A DNA stretch of 43,793 bases. Origin: an uncultured Acidimicrobiia bacterium. GTDB taxonomy: Bacteria > Actinomycetota > Acidimicrobiia > Acidimicrobiales > CAIXPF01. A model generated the notes under the pieces. That model was given only the letters and a program-made list of their open reading frames with translations. It made no database searches and had not been told where the DNA came from. Shown piece by piece: positions 1 through 12,035 of this stretch. The DNA lies in NCBI GenBank assembly GCA_903921205.1, contig CAIXPF010000143.1, forward strand, positions 1 through 43,793, read 5' to 3'. Positions within the stretch are counted from its first letter, which is position 1. Each line of letters opens with the position of its first letter. The translations under genes were made by a program, and so were the position numbers.

Positions 1-119
1 CGCTGGCCAGGACCGATCGCTGGCCAGGACCGATCGCTGGCCAGGACCGATCGCTGGCCAGGACCGATCGCTGGCCAGGACCGATCGCTGGCCAGGACCG
101 ATCGCTGGCCAGGACCGAT
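1..119. repeat. 17-bp tandem repeat, seven exact copies
   Basis: The unit CGCTGGCCAGGACCGAT is repeated seven times without a mismatch and may continue to the left of the window. Each period holds two palindromes, CTGGCCAG and, across the unit junction, CGATCG, separated by GAC. The period is not a multiple of three and the array has no stop codon in any of the six frames, so it could lie inside or outside a gene. There are no spacers, so it is not a CRISPR array. Confidence 0.97.
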
Positions 120-275
120 CGATGGGCCGGACAGGTTGTGGTTGCCGGACTCGGGTCGGTCCGGTACGTTGCGCGCGTCGCCCCGCCGCAGCGGCGTCCC
201 ACTCGAGCGGGACTCGGCCACGGGGGGAACGGGGCGACGGGCGGCCCCGCCCTGCACCGAGGAAAGGCAGATCCC

Positions 276-1487
276 ATGAAGTTCGGCATGATCTACGAAC
301 TGCAGGTCCCCAAGCCCTGGGACGAGGAGAGCGAGTACCGCATCGTCCAGGAGGCCACCGAGCAGGTGGTGCTGGCCGACAAGCTGGGCATCGACCACGC
401 CTGGGCGGTGGAGCACCACTTCCTCGAGGAGTACTCGCACTGCTCGGCGTCCGACGTGTTCCTCGCCTCGCTCGCGGCGAAGACGCAACGCATCCGTATC
501 GGCCTGGGGATCCGCCAGGTCATCCCGAACTACAACCACCCGTCGCGCACCGCCGAGACCGTCGCCATGTTGGACCTGATCTCCAACGGACGCGCCGAGT
601 TCGGCATCGGCGAAGGCGCCACCCGGCTCGAGCTGCGGGGCTACGGCATCAACGCGCAGCGCAAGCAGGCGCTGTCGCTCGAGGCCGCCGAGCAGATCGC
701 CAACATGATGGTGATGGAGCCCTACCCCGGCTACGAGGGCGAGGGCTTCTCCATGCCGTGCCGCAACGTGCTGCCCAAGCCCCGCCAGAAGCCACACCCG
801 CCGATGTGGATGGCCTGCACCAACCGCAAGACCATCGAGGTCGCGGCCCGTAACGGGCTCGGCGCCCTGGCCTTCAGCTTCGTCGACCCCGACGAGGCCC
901 GTCGCTGGGCGCAGCTGTACTACGACATCATCCGCAGCGAGGACTGTGTTCCCATCGGCCATGCGGTCAACGCCAACATCGCCATGGTCGCCGGGTTCTC
1001 GATCCACCGTGACGCCGAGGAGGCCCGCCGCAGAGGCATCGACGGCTTCCAGTTCTTCCGCTACGCGGTGAACGCGCTGGTGGCCAACGAGACCCGCCCC
1101 GGACGCAGCCGGCTGTGGGAGGAGTACGAGGAGCTGCGCGGCCCCGACCTGCCCACCGTGATCGCACCCGGCATCGGGACCCCCGAGAACTACCGGCAGC
1201 TCGTCAGCGAGTTCCAGGATGCGGGGGTCGACCAGATCGTCTTCCTGCAGCAGGGCGGCAAGATCCGCCACGAGCACATCTGCGAGAGCCTCGAGCTGTT
1301 CGCCTCCGACGTGCTGCCGCACTTCCAGGAAGGCCGGGAGGAACGGCTGGCCCGCAAGGAGGAGGAGCTGGCGCCCTACATCGAGGCCGCGCTGGCCCGC
1401 AAGCAGTATCTGAAGCCGCTCACCGACGCCCAGATCCCGATCGTGCCGCCCTCGGCCCAACGTGAGGCGTTCTACGTCCGGTCCTGA
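276..1487 (+). CDS. LLM class flavin/F420-dependent oxidoreductase
   Basis: A 403-residue luciferase-like monooxygenase (TIM barrel). Family members oxidise small organic substrates with reduced FMN or F420. The N-terminal barrel shows the family pattern: MKFGMIYE strand, an AVEHHF segment near residues 46-51, and IRIGLGIRQ near 73-81. The ATG at 276 is chosen because GAGGAAAGG lies 8 bases upstream and the protein then begins as family members do; the frame stays open further upstream, but that part looks non-coding. It is the first of four co-directional genes, followed by a thioesterase, an exporter and a CoA-transferase. The cofactor and substrate cannot be told from sequence alone. An F420 biosynthesis gene (fbiC) elsewhere in the window makes F420 possible but does not prove it. 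Confidence 0.88.
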   Translation: MKFGMIYELQVPKPWDEESEYRIVQEATEQVVLADKLGIDHAWAVEHHFLEEYSHCSASDVFLASLAAKTQRIRIGLGIRQVIPNYNHPSRTAETVAMLDLISNGRAEFGIGEGATRLELRGYGINAQRKQALSLEAAEQIANMMVMEPYPGYEGEGFSMPCRNVLPKPRQKPHPPMWMACTNRKTIEVAARNGLGALAFSFVDPDEARRWAQLYYDIIRSEDCVPIGHAVNANIAMVAGFSIHRDAEEARRRGIDGFQFFRYAVNALVANETRPGRSRLWEEYEELRGPDLPTVIAPGIGTPENYRQLVSEFQDAGVDQIVFLQQGGKIRHEHICESLELFASDVLPHFQEGREERLARKEEELAPYIEAALARKQYLKPLTDAQIPIVPPSAQREAFYVRS

Positions 1488-1595
1488 CCGTCGGGTCGCG
1501 GTGGCCGGGTCCGGTCGGGCAGGGGCGGCGAGTTCCGCCCGTGCCCGGTCGTCCGGCCCGGGCCCTACCGGGCGGCGCGACCGGGTCGGGTTCGT

Positions 1596-1601
1596 TAGGG
1601 T
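1596..1601 (+). promoter_or_regulatory. -10 box of leaderless PaaI thioesterase gene
   Basis: TAGGGT lies 7 bases before the GTG at 1609. This matches the TANNNT plus 6-9 base spacing repeated throughout the window, so transcription probably begins at the start codon. Confidence 0.55.
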
Positions 1602-1608
1602 CCCGTTC

Positions 1609-2022
1609 GTGAGCGACCTGCCTGCGGGCTTCCGACCCGACCCCGAGCTCGACCCGGCCGAGACCCACGTCGGGCCCTTCCTCAGACGGGAGGGGCCGGA
1701 CGGGCCGATCATCGGCCTGGTCGTGCAGGCACATCACTGCAACGAGCACGGGGCCATCCACGGCGGGGTGCAGATGGCGCTGGCCGACTACACCGTTGGG
1801 GTCACCGCACGTCACGGCACCGACGACGCCACCGTCACCGTCAGCTTCGACGCCAACTTCATCGACACCGCCCGGGCCGGCGACGTGGTCGAGGGACGGG
1901 CCGAGATCGTGCGCCGCACCGGGTCGTTGTGCTTCGTCCAGGGCCGGCTGACCTGCGAAGGACGCCCGTTGCTGGCCTTCAACGGCGTCGTGAAGCGACT
2001 GCGACCCAAGCCGGTGGCGTGA
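1609..2022 (+). CDS. PaaI-family hotdog thioesterase
   Basis: A 137-residue single hotdog-fold protein that probably hydrolyses acyl-CoA or phenylacetyl-CoA-like thioesters. The motif HCNEHGAIHGGVQMALAD near residues 44-61 carries the HGG signature and the helix dipole that polarises the thioester; the later strand TVTVSFDANFI is also typical. The longer open frame from 1462 is rejected because GTG 1609 has a -10 box 7 bases upstream and gives normal family length. Its TGA overlaps the GTG of the MFS gene (GTGA), so the two are probably translated together. Substrate unknown. Confidence 0.85.
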   Translation: MSDLPAGFRPDPELDPAETHVGPFLRREGPDGPIIGLVVQAHHCNEHGAIHGGVQMALADYTVGVTARHGTDDATVTVSFDANFIDTARAGDVVEGRAEIVRRTGSLCFVQGRLTCEGRPLLAFNGVVKRLRPKPVA

Positions 2023-3239
2023 CCGCACCCGCCGTTCCCGACCGCCAACCGGGGCCGTTCGCCCCACTGCGGGAGCGGAACTACCGGCTGTTCTTCGTCG
2101 GCAACCTCAGCTCCAACCTGGGTACGTTCTGCCAGTCGATCGCCCAGTCCCTGCTGGTGTTCCGGCTCACCGGGTCGACGGCGCTGGTCGGCGTGGTGAA
2201 CTTCGCCCAGTACGCCGCCGTGCCGGTCCTGGCGCCCACCGCCGGCAGCATCGCCGACCGCTTCGATCGCCGACGGGTCCTCATCGGCGTGCAGTTCGCG
2301 GCGATGGCGGTCAGCGCCGTGCTCACCGTGCTCGCCGCGACCGGACGAGTCACGGCATGGACGGTCATTGCGTTGGCCGGGCTGCTCGGGGTCACCGGCG
2401 CCTTCCAGTTCCCCATCAGCCGGGCGTTGGCCCCGCTGCTGATCAGCGAACGCAACCTCGGCCGGGCCATCAACCTCGACTCGGTGTCGGTGAACCTGGC
2501 CCGCGCCCTCGGGCCGGTGGCGGGGGCCCTCATCGTGGCCCGCTTCGGCGTGGCCTGGGCGTTCGGCATCAACGCCGCGTCGTTCGGGGTGCTGGCCGTC
2601 GCCCTGTTGCTGGTCCATCCGCAGAAGCAGGCGGGCCTGGGCACCCGTTCATCGTTCGTGGAGGGGCTGCGCATCGTGCGACGTCGGCCACTGCTGGCGT
2701 TGCTGCTGTTCATCGTGGCCGCCTGCGCCATCGGGGCCGACCCGCCGGTCACCCTCGGGCCCGAGCTGGCCCACCGCTTCGGCGGGGGAGATCCACTGGC
2801 CGGGCTGATCCTCGGCGCCTTCGGGGCCGGTGGCGTCGCCGGCGCCTTCGTGGCCGGGGCCGAGTCGACCCGCCACCATCGCAAGGTCGGCAGGCTGCTC
2901 GCCCTGTTGGCCGGCGGCATCATCCTGTTCGCACTGTCGTGGGTGCTGCCCCTGACCCTCGTCGGCTCGTTCGTGGCCGGCTTCGGCTACCTCAGCGCCC
3001 AGACGCGTACCAGCACCCTGCTGGTACGCTCCACCGCCGACGCCGAGCGCGGGCGGATCATGGCCCTGTGGTCGATCGCCTTCATCGGCACCCGGCCGCT
3101 GGCCAGCCTGATCGACGGGCTACTGGCCGATTTCGTGAGCCTCCGGCTCGCCGCCGCGGTCATGGCCGTCCCGGCGATCGTCGCAGCGTTGCTGTCGCTG
3201 CGCATGGACCGGCGCCGCAACCCTGCGCCGGCAGGCTGA
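2019..3239 (+). CDS. MFS transporter
   Basis: A 406-residue inner-membrane transporter of the major facilitator superfamily, probably an exporter. It shows about 12 hydrophobic segments. The loop after the second segment, with ADRFDRRRVLIG near residues 77-88, is the family A-motif (DRxxRR). The N terminus FAPLRERNYRLFFVGNLSS is characteristic of the MFS_3/enterobactin-exporter-like group. GTG 2019 is chosen because it overlaps the thioesterase stop as GTGA. Pairing with a thioesterase hints at export of an acid released from CoA, but this is inference. Substrate unknown. Confidence 0.85.
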   Translation: MTAPAVPDRQPGPFAPLRERNYRLFFVGNLSSNLGTFCQSIAQSLLVFRLTGSTALVGVVNFAQYAAVPVLAPTAGSIADRFDRRRVLIGVQFAAMAVSAVLTVLAATGRVTAWTVIALAGLLGVTGAFQFPISRALAPLLISERNLGRAINLDSVSVNLARALGPVAGALIVARFGVAWAFGINAASFGVLAVALLLVHPQKQAGLGTRSSFVEGLRIVRRRPLLALLLFIVAACAIGADPPVTLGPELAHRFGGGDPLAGLILGAFGAGGVAGAFVAGAESTRHHRKVGRLLALLAGGIILFALSWVLPLTLVGSFVAGFGYLSAQTRTSTLLVRSTADAERGRIMALWSIAFIGTRPLASLIDGLLADFVSLRLAAAVMAVPAIVAALLSLRMDRRRNPAPAG

Positions 3240-3278
3240 ACGGCCGCCGACACCGGGTAGCGGACCGCACCGATCTGG

Positions 3279-3284
3279 CAGGAT
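3279..3284 (+). promoter_or_regulatory. possible -10 box of CoA-transferase gene
   Basis: CAGGAT sits 6 bases before GTG 3291. It keeps the second-position A and final T of the local TANNNT pattern but lacks the first T, so it is a weaker match. Confidence 0.3.
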
Positions 3285-3290
3285 GAACGG

Positions 3291-4508
3291 GTGAGCACCC
3301 CGACCCCGTACCTCGAAGGCATTCGCGTCCTCGACTTCACCCAGTACCTCGCCGGCCCGGCCTGCACCCGTCTGCTGACCGAGATGGGCGCCGAGGTCAT
3401 CAAGGTCGAGATGGCGCCCCACGGCGAGCCCACCAGGGCGCAGGAACCGCGCATCAACCGTCGGGCGAGCTATTTCGTGCAGCAGAACCGGGGCAAGCGT
3501 TCGCTGTGTCTCGACCTGCGCAAGCCGGAGGCGGTCCAGGTCATCAAGGACCTGATCCCGCAGATCGACGTGGTCGTCGAGAACTCGACCCCCGGTGTCA
3601 TGGCGCGCCGCGGGCTCGGCTACGAGGACCTGCGGGCCATCAACCCGCGCATCATCATGGCGTCGATCTCGGGGTTCGGACAGACCGGGCCGATGGCGTC
3701 GAAGACCGCGTTCGACTTCATCGCCCAGGCGTACTCGGGCGTGATGCACATGACCGGCGAGCCGGACGGGCCACCGCTGTTCGTCGGCACCGCCATCACC
3801 GACGTCGGCGCCGGGGTCCACGCCTTCGGGGCGATCGGCTACGCCCTGTTCCGACGCGACCGTACCGGCGAGGGCTCCCACATCGACATCGGCATGGTCG
3901 ATTCGCTCTACCACATGCAGGAGATGGCGGTGCACGCCCCGTCGGTGACCAACGGCGCGTACAAGGCCATGCGCAGCGGCCGGCACTACGGCGCCGCTGC
4001 GCCGGCAGGCTCGTTCCGCAGCCCGCAGGGCTGGATCGTGATCTTCTGCACCCAGGCGCAGGTCGCCGAGCTGTTCAAGGCCATGGGCCGGCCCGAGCTG
4101 AAGGACGATCCCCGCTTCGCCATGCCCCAGGCCCGCCTCGACAACCGCGACGAGTTGACCGCCATCATCGAGGACTGGATGGCGCACTTCGCCACCGATG
4201 CCGAGGTGATGGCGATCCTCGAGCGGCACCGCATCCCCTGCGGCCAGGTGATGGAACCGAAGGACCTCGGCACCATCGAGCACTTCCGCCAGCGCGGCAC
4301 GGTGCGAACCGTGACCGATCCGCTCGCCGGCACCTTCGACATCCCCGGTTTCCCGCTCAAGTTCTCCGACGCGCCGCCCGAGCGGGACCTGGTCACCCCG
4401 AACCTCGGCGAGGCCAACGAGTACGTGCTGCGCGAGCTGCTCGGCTACGAGCCCGACCGGGTGGTCGCCTTCGAGCAGGACGGCGTCACCTTCGCCAAGG
4501 ACCGCTGA
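3291..4508 (+). CDS. CaiB/BaiF (class III) CoA-transferase
   Basis: A 405-residue class III CoA-transferase, which moves CoA between carboxylic acids through an aspartyl-CoA thioester. It has the standard layout: LEGIRVLDFTQYLAGP at residues 8-23, the GAEVIKVE strand near 33-40, NRGKRSLCLDLR near 66-77, and GFGQTGP at 128-134. Asp171 in GTAITDVGAG is the likely nucleophile by comparison with formyl-CoA transferase. The C-terminal part carries the IPCGQV hinge usual for the family. It may take part in carnitine, bile-acid, aromatic or branched-chain acid metabolism; the exact acid cannot be read. GTG 3291 gives the normal family length and N terminus. Confidence 0.9.
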   Translation: MSTPTPYLEGIRVLDFTQYLAGPACTRLLTEMGAEVIKVEMAPHGEPTRAQEPRINRRASYFVQQNRGKRSLCLDLRKPEAVQVIKDLIPQIDVVVENSTPGVMARRGLGYEDLRAINPRIIMASISGFGQTGPMASKTAFDFIAQAYSGVMHMTGEPDGPPLFVGTAITDVGAGVHAFGAIGYALFRRDRTGEGSHIDIGMVDSLYHMQEMAVHAPSVTNGAYKAMRSGRHYGAAAPAGSFRSPQGWIVIFCTQAQVAELFKAMGRPELKDDPRFAMPQARLDNRDELTAIIEDWMAHFATDAEVMAILERHRIPCGQVMEPKDLGTIEHFRQRGTVRTVTDPLAGTFDIPGFPLKFSDAPPERDLVTPNLGEANEYVLRELLGYEPDRVVAFEQDGVTFAKDR

Positions 4509-4538
4509 GGCGGCTGCTGGGGCCGGCGACGCCGGGGG

Positions 4539-4997
4539 TCAGCGTCCGCGGCGGCTCGGGCCGCCGCGGTGCTGCCGCCACTGCTCGATGAAGCCGCGAG
4601 CCTTGGCCTCGAAGTCGGCGTCGGGCAGGATCCGTGAGGTGAACGGGGCACTGGGCCGGTAGTACCGGGCCTCGGTCTCGATCTGCAACGCCTTGCGTCC
4701 GCCGCGCTCGGCGATGGTGATGTCGATGATGTCGGCCCATCGGACGAGCTCGGAGCTGCCGATCCCCCGCACGGTCACCCCCTCGGCCTCGAGGTCGATC
4801 CCGGTCCGGCGGTGCAGCGCACCGAGCCCGATCGAGCCGATCCCGGCGCCGAGCAGCAGGCTGCCGAGGTTGCCGCCAACGGCCACGCCGATCACGAACA
4901 GCAGCACGGCCGGCACGAAGGAGGCGACCATCGCCTGACGCAGGGTCGGCCGCAACACCGACGGGACGGCCACGGAGAACGAACGCTCGGCACTCAC
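4539..4997 (-). CDS. PH-domain-containing membrane protein
   Basis: A 152-residue protein with two adjacent membrane segments, around residues 23-43 and 46-62, followed by a soluble beta-rich domain. That domain (GIDLEAEGVTVRG, then VRWADIIDITI) resembles small bacterial PH-like domains of the bPH_6 type. Its function in this family is unknown; it probably sits at the membrane. GTG 4997 is preferred over GTG 5006 because TACCGT at 5005-5010 lies exactly 7 bases upstream of 4997, whereas GTG 5006 overlaps that box. It is convergent with the CoA-transferase gene, 30 bases apart. Confidence 0.6.
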   Translation of the reverse strand: MSAERSFSVAVPSVLRPTLRQAMVASFVPAVLLFVIGVAVGGNLGSLLLGAGIGSIGLGALHRRTGIDLEAEGVTVRGIGSSELVRWADIIDITIAERGGRKALQIETEARYYRPSAPFTSRILPDADFEAKARGFIEQWRQHRGGPSRRGR

Positions 4998-5004
4998 CGG
5001 CCTC

Positions 5005-5010
5005 ACGGTA
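5005..5010 (-). promoter_or_regulatory. -10 box of leaderless PH-domain gene
   Basis: TACCGT on the minus strand, 7 bases before GTG 4997. It decides between two nearby in-frame GTG codons. Confidence 0.5.
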
Positions 5011-5106
5011 GCGGGCGACCGCCGGGGCGACCGAACATCGCTGCCCCGGCCACGCGAGCCACGCCCACCGGTGACAGCCGACCGCGTGGCGTCCGACGGC
5101 GGTTGC

Positions 5107-5112
5107 TAGGTT
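5107..5112 (+). promoter_or_regulatory. -10 box of leaderless SDR gene
   Basis: TAGGTT lies 6 bases before GTG 5119, with no Shine-Dalgarno sequence, consistent with a leaderless transcript. Confidence 0.55.
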
Positions 5113-5118
5113 CCAGCC

Positions 5119-5925
5119 GTGAGCAACGCAGGAACTGTCATCGTCACCGGAGCATCCACCGGCATCGGCGCCGCCACCACCGCCCGCCTCATCGGGGCCG
5201 GGTACGACGTGGTGTCGCTCGACATCAAGACCCCGCCGCCGGGCGTCAGCGCCCACCACCACTGTGATCTCAGCGACCCTGCGTCCATCGAGGCCACGGT
5301 GGCCGAACTGCAGGGGTCCTATGCCTCGCTGCTCAACATCGCCGGGGTACCGGGCACCGTCGGCTCGGAGATGACCATGCGGGTCAACGTCTTCGGCCTG
5401 CGCCAGCTCACCGACAGCCTGTGGGACCGCATCGCCGACGGCGGCACCGTGGTCAACGTGTCCTCGATCGCCGGGAACAACTGGAAGAAGCGCTTCGACC
5501 GCATCGCCGAGGTGCTGGCCACCGCGGATTTCGCCTCGGGCGTCGAGTGGTGGTCGGCCAACAAGAAGACCGTCGGCACCGACGCCTACACCTTCTCCAA
5601 GGAGGCGGTCGTCGTCTACACCATGCAGCTCGCCGGTCGGGGCCTCGGCCGCGGGATCCGGGCCAATGACGTCGGCCCGGGCCCGGTGGACACCCCCATC
5701 TTCCCGGACTTCACCAAGCAGGTGGGCGCCGAGCAGATGCAGTGGGTGGTCGACCAGATCGGCCGGCCGGCCCGTCCCGACGACATCGCCCAGGCCCTGA
5801 CCTGGTTGGCGGTCGGCGATCACGACTGGATCAACGGCCAGCACCTGGTGGTCGACGGTGGCTTCACCGCCGGCGTGCAGGCCAAGTGGATCAGCAAGAC
5901 CACCGCGCCGGCCGCCTCCCGCTGA
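5119..5925 (+). CDS. SDR-family NAD(P)-dependent oxidoreductase
   Basis: A 268-residue classical short-chain dehydrogenase that oxidises or reduces a carbonyl/hydroxyl group with NAD(P). The Rossmann glycine motif TGASTGIG is at residues 10-17, LNIAG at 72-76 contains the structural Asn, SS follows VVNV at 115-116, and the catalytic Tyr157 and Lys161 are in YTFSK. The sequence has a 20-30 residue insertion between the Ser and Tyr motifs, as in 3-alpha-hydroxysteroid-dehydrogenase-like SDRs (coniferyl alcohol dehydrogenase group), which suggests a bulky alcohol or steroid substrate. This subgroup call is tentative. Asp35 at the end of the second strand favours NAD over NADP. Confidence 0.88.
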   Translation: MSNAGTVIVTGASTGIGAATTARLIGAGYDVVSLDIKTPPPGVSAHHHCDLSDPASIEATVAELQGSYASLLNIAGVPGTVGSEMTMRVNVFGLRQLTDSLWDRIADGGTVVNVSSIAGNNWKKRFDRIAEVLATADFASGVEWWSANKKTVGTDAYTFSKEAVVVYTMQLAGRGLGRGIRANDVGPGPVDTPIFPDFTKQVGAEQMQWVVDQIGRPARPDDIAQALTWLAVGDHDWINGQHLVVDGGFTAGVQAKWISKTTAPAASR

Positions 5926-5981
5926 GCGCGCGCGACCCCGGTAGGACCACCTCCCCGAAGAACCCCACACCGTCGCGGCGA

Positions 5982-5987
5982 TAACGT
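5982..5987 (+). promoter_or_regulatory. -10 box of leaderless SRAP gene
   Basis: TAACGT is 7 bases before GTG 5995 but only 1 base before GTG 5989. It therefore supports 5995 as the start, which agrees with the need for Cys at position 2. Confidence 0.6.
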
Positions 5988-5994
5988 CGTGACG

Positions 5995-6750
5995 GTGTGC
6001 GGTCGCTTCGTGTCTTCCTCCAAGCCCGACGAGCTGGCCCGTTACTTCGCCGCTGAACTCGAGCCGGGCGTCGAGCTGGCCGCCAACTACAACGTGGCCC
6101 CGACCAGCGAGGTCTACGTCGTGGTCGAAGAAGACCACCACCGCGTGCTCGAGGCGTTCCGCTGGGGCCTGGTCCCGCCATGGGCGGAGGACCTGCGGGT
6201 CGGGGCACGGATGATCAACGCCCGCCTCGAGACCGTGGCGACCCGTAACGCCTTCCGCCAGGCGTTCCGGCGACGCCGCTGCATCGTGCCTGCCGACGGC
6301 TTCTACGAGTGGACCGCGGTCCCCGGCCAGACCCGCAAGCAGCCGTGGTACATCCACCGGCCCGACGGCGAGCCCTACGCCTTCGCCGGGCTGTGGGAAC
6401 GCTGGCGACCGGCCGGTACCGACGGCCCGTGGGTGCTCAGCTGCTCCGTCATCACAGGCGCCGCCAACCCGCTGATGGCCCGGGTGCACGACCGGATGCC
6501 CGTGGTACTGCCACCCGACGTCTGGAGCGCCTGGCTCGACCCCGACCTGCAGGACGCCGATGCCGTGGCCTCGATGCTGCGACCGACCCCCGCGGAGCTG
6601 GTGGCGTTCCACCCGGTGTCGCTCGAGGTCAACACCGTGCGCAACCGTGGTGCCCACCTCATCGACGAGGTGGCCCTCGGTGAGGGGTCGCCGGACCTGC
6701 GGACCGAGGCGGCGGGCCAGGACCCGACCGGCAGGGGCCCTGCGACCTGA
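5995..6750 (+). CDS. SRAP-family abasic-site processing protein (YedK/HMCES)
   Basis: A 251-residue SRAP protein. The family shields abasic sites in single-stranded DNA by forming a thiazolidine crosslink between the N-terminal Cys and the ring-opened sugar. After removal of the initiator, Cys2 (MCGRF) becomes the reactive N-terminal residue, so GTG 5995 must be the start; an upstream GTG at 5989 would add two residues and inactivate it. With this start, the key residues fall at Asn75 (MINARLET) and Glu105 (GFYEW), the same numbers as in E. coli YedK, and the catalytic His is in ARVHDRMPVVL (His165). It is convergent with the HIT gene. Confidence 0.93.
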   Translation: MCGRFVSSSKPDELARYFAAELEPGVELAANYNVAPTSEVYVVVEEDHHRVLEAFRWGLVPPWAEDLRVGARMINARLETVATRNAFRQAFRRRRCIVPADGFYEWTAVPGQTRKQPWYIHRPDGEPYAFAGLWERWRPAGTDGPWVLSCSVITGAANPLMARVHDRMPVVLPPDVWSAWLDPDLQDADAVASMLRPTPAELVAFHPVSLEVNTVRNRGAHLIDEVALGEGSPDLRTEAAGQDPTGRGPAT

Positions 6751-6789
6751 GCGGCACCCACGTGGGCCGGTGACCGTCGGATGGGTGGG

Positions 6790-7209
6790 TCAGCCCACCT
6801 CGGGGTGACCGGCCCGGCGCAGGGCGACCCGGATCTGCTCGGCGGCCGCGTCGAGCTCCGCCGGGTCGACCGACGTCGCGGCGTTGTCGAAGTCGAGACC
6901 GCCCATGTCCGAGATGGGGATCAGGTGCAGGTGGGTGTGGGGGACCTCGAAGCCGGCGATGATCAGCCCGATCCGGGCCGGCTCGAACGCCGCCTGCTGC
7001 GCCTTGGCGACGTGCTGGCCCACGGTCATGAGGTGCCCGACGGTCGCCGGGTCGAGATCGACCCAGTGGTCCACCTCCCGGCGGGGTACCACCAGCGTAT
7101 GGCCGCGACGGATCGGGTTGATGGACAGGAAGGCGGTACACACCGCGTCCTGCCATACGAACCGTCCGGGCAGCTCACCGTTCATGATCCGGGTGAACAC
7201 GGTTGCCAT
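6790..7209 (-). CDS. HIT-family hydrolase
   Basis: A 139-residue histidine-triad nucleotide-binding protein. HIT proteins hydrolyse phosphoramidates or dinucleoside polyphosphates through a covalent nucleotidyl-histidine. The triad HTHLHLIP gives His91, His93 and His95; the N-terminal FTRIMNGELPGRFVWQD and the PRREVDHW segment are typical of the Hint branch. ATG 7209 has TAGGTT 6 bases upstream. The next + strand gene (carbonic anhydrase) is divergent. Natural substrate unknown. Confidence 0.9.
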   Translation of the reverse strand: MATVFTRIMNGELPGRFVWQDAVCTAFLSINPIRRGHTLVVPRREVDHWVDLDPATVGHLMTVGQHVAKAQQAAFEPARIGLIIAGFEVPHTHLHLIPISDMGGLDFDNAATSVDPAELDAAAEQIRVALRRAGHPEVG

Positions 7210-7215
7210 GGCCGC

Positions 7216-7221
7216 AACCTA
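7216..7221 (-). promoter_or_regulatory. -10 box of leaderless HIT gene
   Basis: TAGGTT on the minus strand, 6 bases before ATG 7209; no ribosome-binding site is visible. Confidence 0.55.
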
Positions 7222-7296
7222 GCCAATGGGACCGGACACGGGGTGCCTCGCTCGGGTGAGCCGACCGGCGGTGGAAGACCGGTAGCCGAAGCCCGG

Positions 7297-7302
7297 TAGT
7301 GT
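7297..7302 (+). promoter_or_regulatory. -10 box upstream of carbonic anhydrase
   Basis: TAGTGT lies 9 bases before ATG 7312, at the long end of the local spacing range. Confidence 0.45.
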
Positions 7303-7311
7303 GCTTCATCT

Positions 7312-7944
7312 ATGGAGAAGATCCTTGCCGGTGTCGCCCATTTCCAGCGGGAGGTCTTTCCGCAGCTGTCAGCCGAGGCGAGCCTCGCGGCAACCGGCCC
7401 GCAGCGCCCGCGGGCGCTGTTCATCACGTGCTCCGACTCGCGGGTGACACCCCACCTCATCACCCAGACCCACCCGGGCGATCTGTTCGGCTGCCAGATC
7501 GTCGGCAACATCGTGCCCGCCTTCGGCGCCACCTACGGCGGCGTGTCGGCGACGATCGAATACGCCCTGTCGGTGCTGGAGATCCCGAACATCATCGTGT
7601 GCGGACACTCCGACTGTGGTGCCATGAAGGTGCTGCTCGAACCTTCCGCGGTCGATGCGATGCCCCACATCAAGACCTGGATCAGCCACGCCGAGGCTGC
7701 CCGGCTGACCGTGACGGAGAACTGGCCCGACGCCGATGACGACGCCAAGCTCCGGTTGCTCACCGAGCACAACGTGGTGGCCCAGTTGATGCACCTGCGC
7801 ACCCATCCATCGGTCGCCTCCCGCCTCGTCGGCGGCAAGCTCCGCCTGCACGGGTGGGTCTACGAGCTGCACACCGGCGAGGTGCGCAGCTACCACGAGG
7901 AGACCGGCGAGTTCGTCCCGGTGGTCACCGCCGGCTCCCGGTAG
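7312..7944 (+). CDS. beta-class carbonic anhydrase
   Basis: A 210-residue beta-carbonic anhydrase, which interconverts CO2 and bicarbonate with zinc. Zinc ligands are Cys40 (in CSDSRV), His99 and Cys102 (in GHSDCGAM). The Asp42-Arg44 pair that gates the zinc is present. The fold markers DLFGCQIVGNIVP and GGVSATIEYAL are in place, and the length is normal. It probably supplies bicarbonate for carboxylases in the cytoplasm. It is convergent with the next small gene, 6 bases apart. Confidence 0.95.
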   Translation: MEKILAGVAHFQREVFPQLSAEASLAATGPQRPRALFITCSDSRVTPHLITQTHPGDLFGCQIVGNIVPAFGATYGGVSATIEYALSVLEIPNIIVCGHSDCGAMKVLLEPSAVDAMPHIKTWISHAEAARLTVTENWPDADDDAKLRLLTEHNVVAQLMHLRTHPSVASRLVGGKLRLHGWVYELHTGEVRSYHEETGEFVPVVTAGSR

Positions 7945-7950
7945 GCGACC

Positions 7951-8220
7951 TCAGGCCTCCACTGCACGCAGCAGGGCCGGCGCACGCAGCCCATGACCCC
8001 GTGCTGTGGCGAGCTCGGCCAGCTCGTCATCGCCCAGCTGGCGGATCATCAGCACCTCGGCGGTGCGCACCGAGAACACCCGGCTGCTCCACGAGTCGAC
8101 CACGTTGCGACACTCATCATTGCGGAAGAACGTGGTCATCTGTCCCTCCTGCTGGTAGGCGTGGGCGTCGGAAACCTGCTCGACCGTGCGGTCCTTCAGG
8201 GTCACCTCGAAGCTCGGCAT
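7951..8220 (-). CDS. small conserved-looking protein, unknown function
   Basis: I do not recognise this 89-residue protein. It starts MPSFEVTLKDRTVEQV, has a middle segment VVDSWSSRVFSVRTAEVLMIRQ that looks like two beta strands, and ends with a helical Leu/Ala-rich tail. There is no signal peptide or membrane segment. ATG 8220 is chosen over GTG 8232 because a full AGGAGG (8231-8236 on the plus strand as its complement) lies about 11 bases upstream of the ATG and would overlap the GTG. It is one of the few genes here with a strong ribosome-binding site. Confidence 0.65.
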   Translation of the reverse strand: MPSFEVTLKDRTVEQVSDAHAYQQEGQMTTFFRNDECRNVVDSWSSRVFSVRTAEVLMIRQLGDDELAELATARGHGLRAPALLRAVEA

Positions 8221-8335
8221 GACTCGTCGCACCTCCTACGCCACCGCGGACTGCGGTCGACACTCCGACGGTACGACGATCCGGCTGTGGGCTACCAGAG
8301 GCCAAACCCTGTGTATTCACGGTGGATTGCCGGGT

Positions 8336-8344
8336 TTGTCCACA
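8336..8344 (+). promoter_or_regulatory. single DnaA-box-like site
   Basis: TTGTCCACA matches the actinobacterial DnaA box exactly. It sits in the 174-base gap between two divergent small genes. There is no cluster of further boxes and no AT-rich unwinding region, so this is not an origin. It could titrate DnaA, regulate a neighbour, or be chance. Confidence 0.35.
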
Positions 8345-8394
8345 GATCCGGGCCGGTCCGCACCCGCCACCGCACGGCGCGCGATGCTGGGACC

Positions 8395-8577
8395 GTGCTC
8401 ACGTTCACCTGCCCCCGCTGCCGTACCGACGCCAGCGACGAGTTCTACGGGCCGTGCTCCGACTGCCGTCAGGCGTTGCGGGCCGAGCAGGGCACCGACC
8501 CGGTCGGCACCGTCACCGAGGCGGCGTACGAGCCGAAGATGAACGTCACGCCCAACGCCGTCGCGCTCAAGGAGTGA
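8395..8577 (+). CDS. small zinc-ribbon protein, unknown function
   Basis: A 60-residue protein with two CxxC knuckles: CPRC at residues 6-9 and CSDC at 22-25, a likely structural zinc ribbon. The C-terminal half (VGTVTEAAYEPKMNVTPNAVALKE) is polar and has no known motif. GTG 8395 is selected because the first Cys pair follows it directly, and GATGCT lies 6 bases upstream. The longer open frame from 7993 is an artefact of high GC. It ends 7 bases before the convergent acyl-CoA synthetase gene. Function not known. Confidence 0.6.
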   Translation: MLTFTCPRCRTDASDEFYGPCSDCRQALRAEQGTDPVGTVTEAAYEPKMNVTPNAVALKE

Positions 8578-8584
8578 CCGCCGT

Positions 8585-10243
8585 TCAGGCCGGGGCCGAC
8601 GCCGCGATCTCCTTGGCCCAGCGGTAGTCGGCCTTGCCCGACGGGCTGCGCTTGACCGCGTCCACCCGGACCACGACCTTGGGCAGCTTGTAGCGGGCCA
8701 CGTGCCGGCCGGCGACCTCCACGAGGGACTCGTCGGTGACCGTCGTCGCAGCGTCGTCACGTAGCTGGAGCACGGCGACCACCTCGTTACCCCAGCGTTC
8801 GCTGGGACGACCCACCACGATGACGTCGATCACCGCCGGATGGGCCTTGAGTGCCTGTTCGACCTCCTCGGCGAAGATCTTCTCGCCACCGGAGTTGATG
8901 GTCACCGAATCCCGCCCGAGCAGCTCGAGGGAGCCGTCGGCGGCGTAGCGGGCCCGGTCACCGGCCACCGAGTAGCGCACGCCGTCGATCACCGGGAAGG
9001 TCCGGGCCGTCTTGGCCTCGTCCCCGAGGTACCCGCGGGGCACTGCACCGGCCTGGCCCAGCCACCCGGTGCGCTCGTCGCCGGGCGGGAGCACGGTGGT
9101 GAGCTCCTCGTCGAGCAGGCGCGCATGGGGACCGGGCTGGAAGGTGCCGGCCTGGTCCTGCTGGTCCTGCTTGACGTTGCGCACCGCTTGGCGGCCCGAC
9201 TCCGACGAGCCGAGGACGTCGACGATGGTCAGGCCCGGGATGCGCTCGAGCAGCGCCGCCTTGTTGGCGGGGGAGAGCACCGCCCCGCCGCTGAGCAGGA
9301 ACCGCAGGCTGGACAGGTCGTAGTCGGCCACGGCGAGCTGCTCGAGGAGCGGCCGGGCGAAGGCGTCTCCGACGATCTGCACCGCGGTGACCTTCTCACG
9401 GGCCACGACGGACCACAGATCGTCGGGCTCGAGCCGTGCCGGCTGGTCCTGGATGACCACCGTGCCTCCGCCCAGCCATGCCGACAGTGCGTTCCAGTGC
9501 GCTGCGCCGTGCATGAACGGCGCCGCCGGCAGGGCCCGTAGCGTCGAACGTGGGGCCGCCTCGGCCAGTTCCGCAGGGCTCTTGGCGACCCCGAGCGCGG
9601 CCTCGAGGAAGTCGCCCTGGCGCCACAGGACGCCCTTGGGCATCCCGGTGGTGCCGCCGGTGTACAAGATGTAGAGGTCGTCCGGGGTCCAACCGGCGAC
9701 CAGCTCGGCGGGCAGCTCCGGGGACGCCTCGGCCAGGGCGTCCTCGTACCACCTCGCCCCGGCCAGGAGCGGCAGGCCGGACTCGTCGGGGACCTGCAGG
9801 ATCATCGGTGACCCGGCCGGGTCGCCGGCCTCCGACAGCGTCGCCATGGCCTCGGCGAGGATCGGCGTGAAGGTGCTGTGGACCACCACGGCCTTCACCG
9901 AGGCGTCGCGCAGCACGTAGGCCAGTTCCTCCGCCACGTAGCGGTAGTTGATGTTGACCGGGCCGCAGCGGGCCTTGAACGATCCGATCATGGCCTCGAG
10001 GTACTCGTTGCCGTTGTGCAGGTACAGCGCCACGTGGTCGTGGGGAGACTCCCACCCGGCGCACGACGCAGGCTCGCGGCGCAGGCCCAGACCGGCACCG
10101 TGCAGCACCGAGGCCAAGCGCCGGGTGCGCTCGGTGAACTCCCGCCAGCTCCACACCCGGCCTCGCCAGACGAAGCAATCACGGTCGGGGACGGCGGCGG
10201 CCACTGCCTCCTGGGCAGCGGGCAGGGATACCTGGGTGCTCAC
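8585..10243 (-). CDS. acyl-CoA synthetase (AMP-forming)
   Basis: A 552-residue ANL-superfamily ligase that activates a fatty or other carboxylic acid to acyl-CoA through an acyl-adenylate. The P-loop YTGGTTGMPKG is at 194-204, the A8 hinge region GRDSVTINSGGEKIFAEEVE is in the C-terminal third, and the adenylation lysine is Lys537 in PSGKADYRW. It resembles actinobacterial FadD-type enzymes annotated for fatty acids or steroid side chains; the acid is not determinable. GTG 10243 is chosen from a -10 box 7 bases upstream; the longer frame adds a low-complexity, Arg/Ser/Thr-rich stretch that is not family-like. It follows the epimerase-like gene on the same strand. Confidence 0.9.
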   Translation of the reverse strand: MSTQVSLPAAQEAVAAAVPDRDCFVWRGRVWSWREFTERTRRLASVLHGAGLGLRREPASCAGWESPHDHVALYLHNGNEYLEAMIGSFKARCGPVNINYRYVAEELAYVLRDASVKAVVVHSTFTPILAEAMATLSEAGDPAGSPMILQVPDESGLPLLAGARWYEDALAEASPELPAELVAGWTPDDLYILYTGGTTGMPKGVLWRQGDFLEAALGVAKSPAELAEAAPRSTLRALPAAPFMHGAAHWNALSAWLGGGTVVIQDQPARLEPDDLWSVVAREKVTAVQIVGDAFARPLLEQLAVADYDLSSLRFLLSGGAVLSPANKAALLERIPGLTIVDVLGSSESGRQAVRNVKQDQQDQAGTFQPGPHARLLDEELTTVLPPGDERTGWLGQAGAVPRGYLGDEAKTARTFPVIDGVRYSVAGDRARYAADGSLELLGRDSVTINSGGEKIFAEEVEQALKAHPAVIDVIVVGRPSERWGNEVVAVLQLRDDAATTVTDESLVEVAGRHVARYKLPKVVVRVDAVKRSPSGKADYRWAKEIAASAPA

Positions 10244-10250
10244 CCGCAGG

Positions 10251-10256
10251 ACGGTA
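10251..10256 (-). promoter_or_regulatory. -10 box of leaderless acyl-CoA synthetase gene
   Basis: TACCGT on the minus strand, 7 bases before GTG 10243. Confidence 0.55.
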
Positions 10257-10292
10257 GCGGACGGGCCCGGCGCGACGCCCGAAGCGCCCGCC

Positions 10293-11390
10293 TCAGCTCT
10301 TGGCGGGCACCAGGCGCCAGTCGTCGGAACCGGGCGCGTAACGATCGCGGAAGTCGGGGTCGTAGGCCGCGGCGACCGGCCCGACACCGCCGAGCAGCGT
10401 GCGATACGCCTCGATGAGCCGGTCCTCGGCCTCGTAGTCGAACGGGTCCTGCAGGCGCATCTCGGTGACCGAGCCGCGTTCGACCGGATTGGCCGCCAGA
10501 TACCGGGCCGTACGTCGGATGGCCTCGGGTGCCGGAACGGGGTCGCGGTAGCCGAGGTCATGGCGGATCGCATCGACACCGGTGAACTTGTGCAGCGTGG
10601 TCTCGGCCGACAGGAACGGACGGGCCGGTGTCGCCAACTCGGCGGGGAGGTTGACGATCTCCATCTCGCAGTCGAGCGCCTCGGCGATCAGCTCGATGGT
10701 CTGCCGTGCGGTCAACGTGAGCTCGTCACCCACGTTGTAGGCCTTGCCGGCGGCGGCGTCGGGGTTGCCGGCAGCGAGCACAAGAGCATGCGAGACGTTG
10801 GGACCGTACCCGGCCGAGCGCAGGGTCAGACCACCGTCGGCGACCACGATCCGACGGCGACCGTCGAGGATCCGCCGCACGATCAGCCATTCACGCGGGT
10901 TGATCTGGCCCGGCCCGTAGATGAGCGGGTAGCGGAACAGCGTGCCGTTCGGATGGTGGGAGAAGAACGTGTCCTCGGTCTGCACGATCCGGGCGACCTT
11001 CACATTGGCGTCGTCCACCGCACGGTCGGCCGTCTCGCGCACCGGCACGAGCATGCCCGCCGGTCGGTTCTGCTGGGGCAGGGCGAAACCCCGATACACC
11101 GGAACGCCACCGACGGCCAGCATCCGTCCGCAGCGACCCTCGAAGAAGCGAGCGAGGTCACGGAGCCGCCCGTACATCGCATAGACCAGATCGAAGGTCC
11201 GCCCGCCGAGGGCCTCCTCGACGGCCTGCACGTCGAAGGGATTGGTGTGGATGTGCTCCACCGACGCCGGGATGGTGTCCACCTCGTGCGCGCCGGTGTG
11301 CAGGATCGTCACCGTGCACCCGGCCTCGATCAACCCGTTGACCAGATGGGGACCTGTTGGACCCGTTCCTCCGATGACCAGAACCTGCAT
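10293..11390 (-). CDS. NAD-dependent epimerase/dehydratase-like protein
   Basis: A 365-residue extended/atypical SDR. The N-terminal dinucleotide motif is MQVLVIGGTGPTGPHLV, with the glycines at residues 7-12. The usual Tyr-x-x-x-Lys pair is not obvious: the region around FRYPLIYGPGQ matches the substrate-side segment of epimerases, but no YxxxK is visible before it, so it may be an atypical SDR with an altered active site. A C-terminal region with YNVGDELTLTARQTIELIAEALD is typical of sugar-epimerase-like proteins. ATG 11390 has TACAGT 6 bases upstream. It lies between a TetR regulator and an acyl-CoA synthetase on one strand. Reaction unknown. Confidence 0.75.
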   Translation of the reverse strand: MQVLVIGGTGPTGPHLVNGLIEAGCTVTILHTGAHEVDTIPASVEHIHTNPFDVQAVEEALGGRTFDLVYAMYGRLRDLARFFEGRCGRMLAVGGVPVYRGFALPQQNRPAGMLVPVRETADRAVDDANVKVARIVQTEDTFFSHHPNGTLFRYPLIYGPGQINPREWLIVRRILDGRRRIVVADGGLTLRSAGYGPNVSHALVLAAGNPDAAAGKAYNVGDELTLTARQTIELIAEALDCEMEIVNLPAELATPARPFLSAETTLHKFTGVDAIRHDLGYRDPVPAPEAIRRTARYLAANPVERGSVTEMRLQDPFDYEAEDRLIEAYRTLLGGVGPVAAAYDPDFRDRYAPGSDDWRLVPAKS

Positions 11391-11396
11391 GGGCGC

Positions 11397-11402
11397 ACTG
11401 TA
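11397..11402 (-). promoter_or_regulatory. -10 box of leaderless epimerase-like gene
   Basis: TACAGT on the minus strand, 6 bases before ATG 11390, in the 42-base gap after the TetR gene. Confidence 0.5.
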
Positions 11403-11432
11403 GGACGGTGGGGGAGAGGCTGCCCGCTGCAC

Positions 11433-12035
11433 TCACCCCGCGAGGGTGCCGACCCGGCGGTCGAGCAGGCCGGAGAACCCGGTCCACACCTGCAGGTCGA
11501 GATGCTCGAGCATCGTCTCGGCCGAACTGCCCGAAGCATCGAGCCAATGCCGGGTCGTGCTCTCGAGCAGTCCGAGCAGCCCGGCGACGGCCAGCTCCGA
11601 CGAATCCGCATCGCCGAGGGTATGGGCGAGGCGCCGGACACGTTCCCGGCGGACGCGCTGCACCGCCGGGTGCTGCACCACGGCAGCATGCGCGAGCATC
11701 TGCCAGGTTCCGGTGCTGGTCTGGGCGAACTCCACGTACCTGCGGGCCAGGTCGCGCAGGCGTGCGGCAGGGGACTGCCCGGATTCCAGCACCTCGAGCA
11801 GCGCCCCGTCGAGGGACCCGAGTGCCTGCCGGTACACCTCGGCCAGCAAGTTCCCCTTGTCCCCGAAGTAGTTGTAGACCAACGCCCGGGACACGCCGGC
11901 CTCGTGGGCGATCTCCTCGAAGGTCACCGCAGAGGGATCCTGGCTCGAGAACACGCGATGCGCCGCAGCGAGAATCTCCTCGCGCCGCTGTTCGGGGGAG
12001 AGGCGCTGGCGACCGTCTCGTCCACGGGCGGACAT
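11433..12035 (-). CDS. TetR-family transcriptional regulator
   Basis: A 200-residue TetR regulator. The N-terminal helix-turn-helix spans about residues 39-58 (TFEEIAHEAGVSRALVYNYF), preceded by the usual REEILAAAHRVF helix. The C-terminal ligand domain is unlabelled and its ligand is unknown. ATG 12035 gives the normal N-terminal arm; the longer frame to 12221 adds Gly-rich sequence unlike the family. It is first in a minus-strand run with an epimerase-like gene and an acyl-CoA synthetase, so it may control lipid metabolism and itself. A candidate operator and -10 box lie about 150 bases upstream. Confidence 0.9.
   Translation of the reverse strand: MSARGRDGRQRLSPEQRREEILAAAHRVFSSQDPSAVTFEEIAHEAGVSRALVYNYFGDKGNLLAEVYRQALGSLDGALLEVLESGQSPAARLRDLARRYVEFAQTSTGTWQMLAHAAVVQHPAVQRVRRERVRRLAHTLGDADSSELAVAGLLGLLESTTRHWLDASGSSAETMLEHLDLQVWTGFSGLLDRRVGTLAG

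Follow-up and report, generated by a model that had tools for sequence, protein, structure and literature searches.

A probable intergenic minisatellite of 17-bp units upstream of a luciferase-like monooxygenase gene in an uncultured Acidimicrobiia bacterium

The window (the whole stretch of DNA analysed, 43,793 nucleotides from an uncultured Acidimicrobiia bacterium) opens with a palindrome-bearing tandem array, which raises the question of what kind of element this is and whether it serves the genes beside it. The original prediction of seven exact 17-bp copies at 1-119 was borne out, and exact periodicity continues even to 121, the earliest mismatch being at 122. The array (1..121, no strand assigned) comprises 7.1 units of CGCTGGCCAGGACCGAT and is cut on its left side by the contig end. 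TRF gave 7.4 copies and an array reaching 125; the rest of a partial copy that has diverged, bordering the array on the right (122..138, no strand assigned), was delimited by eye, and this copy is possibly the seed from which the array expanded. Each 17-bp unit is built of CTGGCCAG, GAC and CGATCG, as first described, and the units are contiguous and run head to tail. With up to 3 mismatches allowed, 7 unit matches were found against a mean of 0.48 and a maximum of 3 in 100 shuffles, which excludes chance. Separate 8-bp and 6-bp palindromes occur in 0.9% of random 17-mers from the window, a rarity that was noticed post hoc and is to be weighed against the 27 arrays later listed in a 567-kb sample. 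The array is indeed open in all six frames, but this proved unremarkable, since 64% of random window 17-mers would be equally open if tandemly repeated.

The gene to the right of the array (276..1487, + strand; 403 aa) encodes a luciferase-like monooxygenase of family PF00296. A ribosome-binding site, GAGGAAAGG (259..267, + strand), lies 8 bp before the ATG at 276 and is conserved in the genome G002. A promoter for the monooxygenase was predicted by eye at 142..170 (+ strand), with TTGCCG at 142-147 and TACGTT at 165-170 separated by 17 bp. The same TTGCCG and TACGTT with 17-bp spacing were found in G003, a genome of another species of the genus, and G002 retains TTG and TACGTT at equal spacing. 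A strict consensus scan called no promoter site, so the assignment is drawn from conservation. The array is upstream of this predicted promoter, its edge about 55 bp before the putative start site.

The left side of the locus can be read in G003, where three units with 53 bp of exact period are internal to a 101,041-bp contig; the array-containing locus was therefore also assembled independently, in a sister species. A luciferase-like monooxygenase gene (PF00296) starts 154 bp to the right of the G003 array. A divergent short-chain dehydrogenase (SDR) gene (PF13561/PF00106) lies about 180-200 bp to its left, according to the start codon chosen, and beyond the SDR is a periplasmic binding protein gene (PF13458). 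By the gene calls at the G003 locus, the array thus falls outside genes, between the divergent SDR and monooxygenase, and is intergenic. Positions 1569-12000 of the window are 90% identical to, and syntenic with, a region further along this G003 contig, and in G003 about 2.8 kb that is absent from the window separates the monooxygenase from this syntenic region. These 2.8 kb (L032, about 2300-5100, C15), between the monooxygenase and a thioesterase, hold repeats of about 150 bp and, by eye, an NHL-like gene. In the window's own genome, contig C122 terminates within a gene 94% identical to the G003 binding protein, and the left neighbour is therefore probably the same. By analogy with the G003 gene order, the SDR would probably be the left neighbour of the array here as well; a left-flank DNA search of the own genome returned no close SDR match.

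The genome search for other arrays that had been proposed was run, and all 7 exact unit matches in 4.36 Mb were at the window array. Outside the array the same 4.36 Mb held one site with 1 mismatch and four with 2. A dispersed repeat or a regulon of single sites is unsupported, as exact units are confined to one locus. Among 397 genomes of the order, two had an array of two units with up to 3 mismatches: the window's own genome and G003. The exact two-unit pattern was found in one record of a genome collection (the G003 locus, CANJRG010000015.1), a search that the own genome perhaps falls outside. The same pattern was found in 0 viral contigs, which does not support a phage origin.

The array is likely to be an intergenic minisatellite between the divergent SDR and luciferase-like monooxygenase genes, probably of variable copy number. 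It is genuine and ordinary, and minisatellites as such are already a known kind of element. Near-identical units run head to tail and the array is outside genes, both of which are marks of a minisatellite. The array would have grown from imperfect seed copies, still to be seen at its edges, through slipped-strand replication or unequal recombination; its copy number would change faster than the flanks mutate, and it would itself have little function, if any. The array counts 3 units in G003 and at least 7 on the contig here, with the unit and right flank identical, although this is a difference between species and between one complete array and one cut by a contig end. The recent expansion originally suggested is supported by this comparison; the alternative offered with it, strong selection, is unnecessary for explaining the identity of the units. 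Should the two species truly differ in copy number on a segment otherwise identical for 281 bp, such arrays change far faster than their flanks, and this one could serve to track strains of an uncultured lineage.

Bacterial minisatellites or VNTRs are described, in passages of PMC2884548, as small variable segments used for strain typing. The window array resembles them in its short, head-to-tail, intergenic units and, apparently, in a copy number that varies between relatives. It differs in that 17 bp is below the 20-bp cut-off given in that source, and in that variation here is between species only, with one array truncated. REP sequences or palindromic units (PU), as treated in the same passages, are likewise intergenic, palindrome-bearing and clustered, but they are dispersed, whereas the window array occupies one locus only. 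The array also departs from a CRISPR, as its units are contiguous with no unique spacers between repeats. A search of positions 1-600 for known RNA elements gave none up to E = 1. Iterons are direct repeats of about 17-22 bp at plasmid origins, and the array shares with them direct repeats of comparable unit length. Unlike iterons, it stands in chromosome-like synteny with the 101-kb G003 contig. Among six neighbouring genes compared with Pfam, four from the window and two from G003, none was a replication initiator.

Hairpin-driven expansion was also considered. Against dinucleotide shuffles, a control that destroys tandem order, the array folded much better (z -5.4). When tandem order was kept, 20 of 150 arrays of shuffled units and 45 of 300 arrays of random window 17-mers folded as well, and hairpin formation by the array is therefore not exceptional. 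Hairpin-driven expansion was rejected on these grounds. Furthermore, no consistent hairpin excess was seen across 19 arrays (18 intergenic arrays and the array at the start of C6).

A stretch of 281 bp (69..349, no strand assigned) is identical to G003 and takes in the array end, the whole non-coding leader and the first 74 bases of the gene. In about 40 kb compared, the next longest identical run was 119 bp, and beyond 350 the identity of 39,056 windows, each of 228 aligned bases, peaked at 0.987 and averaged 0.883. Elsewhere over the window contig, G003 is about 88% identical. At four-fold sites of the monooxygenase beyond 350, 21-23% differ (12/56, 11/49, 11/53 and 9/39), and 0 of 7 such sites differ within its first 75 bases. 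The same non-coding stretch is identical to G002 at only 94 of 150 positions, so that ordinary constraint is an uncomfortable explanation and long-term constraint is disfavoured as the source of the identity. A leader identical amid such four-fold divergence could nevertheless reflect a functional region under strong constraint in this lineage. Judged from sequence comparison, a recent homologous exchange between species would fit the 281 bp, and so would reads of a G003-like strain assembled into the contig end. Under the minisatellite explanation, the array-bearing segment (at least 69-349) would probably have been exchanged recently between the two species.

The possibility was considered that the array is real but that the assembler produced its seven copies, or even the entire identical end of the contig, through a graph loop or by joining reads of a G003-like strain to the contig. 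This is possible, though less probable than not; it concerns copy number and identity and is compatible with the minisatellite explanation. The window is the whole of contig C143 in a 208-contig, 4.36-Mb assembly, and base 1 is an assembly break. "Seven" is therefore unreliable as a copy number, the array being truncated, and the 281-bp identity to G003 likewise sits at the contig end. Pure tandem runs of 64, 111, 121 and 135 bp were found at 4 of 101 readable contig ends, indicating that such arrays repeatedly terminate contigs in this assembly; runs of 21-29 bp were found at 3 further ends. Other contigs that end in tandem arrays are C6 (L050, 1-111), C58 (L149, 1-150) and C44 (L135, 6115-6178).

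Exact terminal overlaps of 141 bases join the contig pairs C13/C14 and C14/C34 among the 101 readable ends. In de Bruijn assembly by MEGAHIT, contig ends overlap by maxK, according to a passage of PMC10914622, and the 141-base overlaps are as expected for such an assembly with a largest k of 141, which favours a contribution of the assembler. An assembler k of 121 is unsupported, since 141 is the sole overlap length above 100 bases common to two different contig pairs; other contig-to-contig end overlaps were of 122, 79, 75, 64, 58, 40 and 34 bases. The pure run of 121 is shorter than 141, which indicates that its length is not simply fixed by the largest k and argues against an assembly effect, as does the complete array of the identical unit inside the G003 contig. 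The contig may have stopped at the array for lack of coverage. The case is mostly cautionary: a repeat with which a contig opens marks a break in the assembly, and the number of copies counted there is not to be taken at face value.

A regulatory array is unlikely. Here the units would be operators for a DNA-binding protein controlling the monooxygenase, the SDR or both, and copy number would tune expression, on the model of promoter repeats such as those of Neisseria nadA. The location between divergent genes, a short way before the predicted promoter, the palindromic unit, and the identity of unit and leader in two species are all consistent with such a role. However, near-exact single units are missing from other promoters in the 4.36 Mb searched, and looser matches were enriched over a reversed control (its dinucleotides not matched) to a similar degree in the array-less genomes G001 and G002. 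Moreover, G002 has the gene, a related leader and the conserved promoter core without any array, and a 17-bp spacing does not correspond to whole helical turns.

Phase-variation promoter repeats described in a portion of PMC3899988 include TAAA at nadA and TA in the bidirectional hifA/hifB promoter. The window array is like them in lying near promoter elements and between divergent genes. It is unlike them, as far as they are treated in that portion, in that its unit is 17 bp, in that its position is before the predicted -35 and not between promoter elements, and in that its neighbour is not a surface-antigen gene and switching is not evidenced here. By this analogy, a regulatory effect like that of known promoter repeats is possible, position being its one support. 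With a regulatory role, if true, tuning by promoter repeats would be known from a free-living actinobacterium of the environment as well. More doubtful still is the fuller proposal that a hypervariable repeat serves there as an expression tuner upstream of the divergent monooxygenase/SDR promoter and is moved between species by homologous recombination, its copy number changing before the flanks gain even one substitution.

Hardly credible is the original suggestion that the array is the tail of an upstream gene, which would then encode C-terminal repeats of a protein translationally coupled to the monooxygenase. Frame 1 does stay open up to a TGA (277-279) that overlaps the ATG (276-278) in the predicted ATGA, but the left neighbour in G003 is the divergent SDR on the opposite strand, 17 bp is not divisible by 3, and the frame ending at 277-279 has no Pfam family match. 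In G002, moreover, the frame is broken by gaps: 14 columns of the non-coding alignment are gapped, among them a gap of 4 bp and one of 1 bp next to the ATG.

Arrays of this kind are found elsewhere in the genome. In 567 kb of it, 27 arrays had a period of 10-30, at least 2.8 copies and at least 90% match, and 18 of the 27 were intergenic by a simple gene caller that left about 9.5% of the sample non-coding and was crude on starts, beginning the monooxygenase too early, for example. Among the 27, the window array ranks first in copies and in score and is otherwise like the others. When three other intergenic arrays were compared with G003, none was kept; the stretch L150, with four arrays, was excluded from this comparison because it matched G003 as two pieces on different contigs. 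A 14-bp tandem array in L138 (12715-12773, C47) is missing at the corresponding place of the sister species (L160). The four tandem arrays of L150 (9374-10135, C59) have units of 16, 13, 11 and 19 bp within about 760 bp called non-coding, and the flanks of this region match two different G003 contigs.
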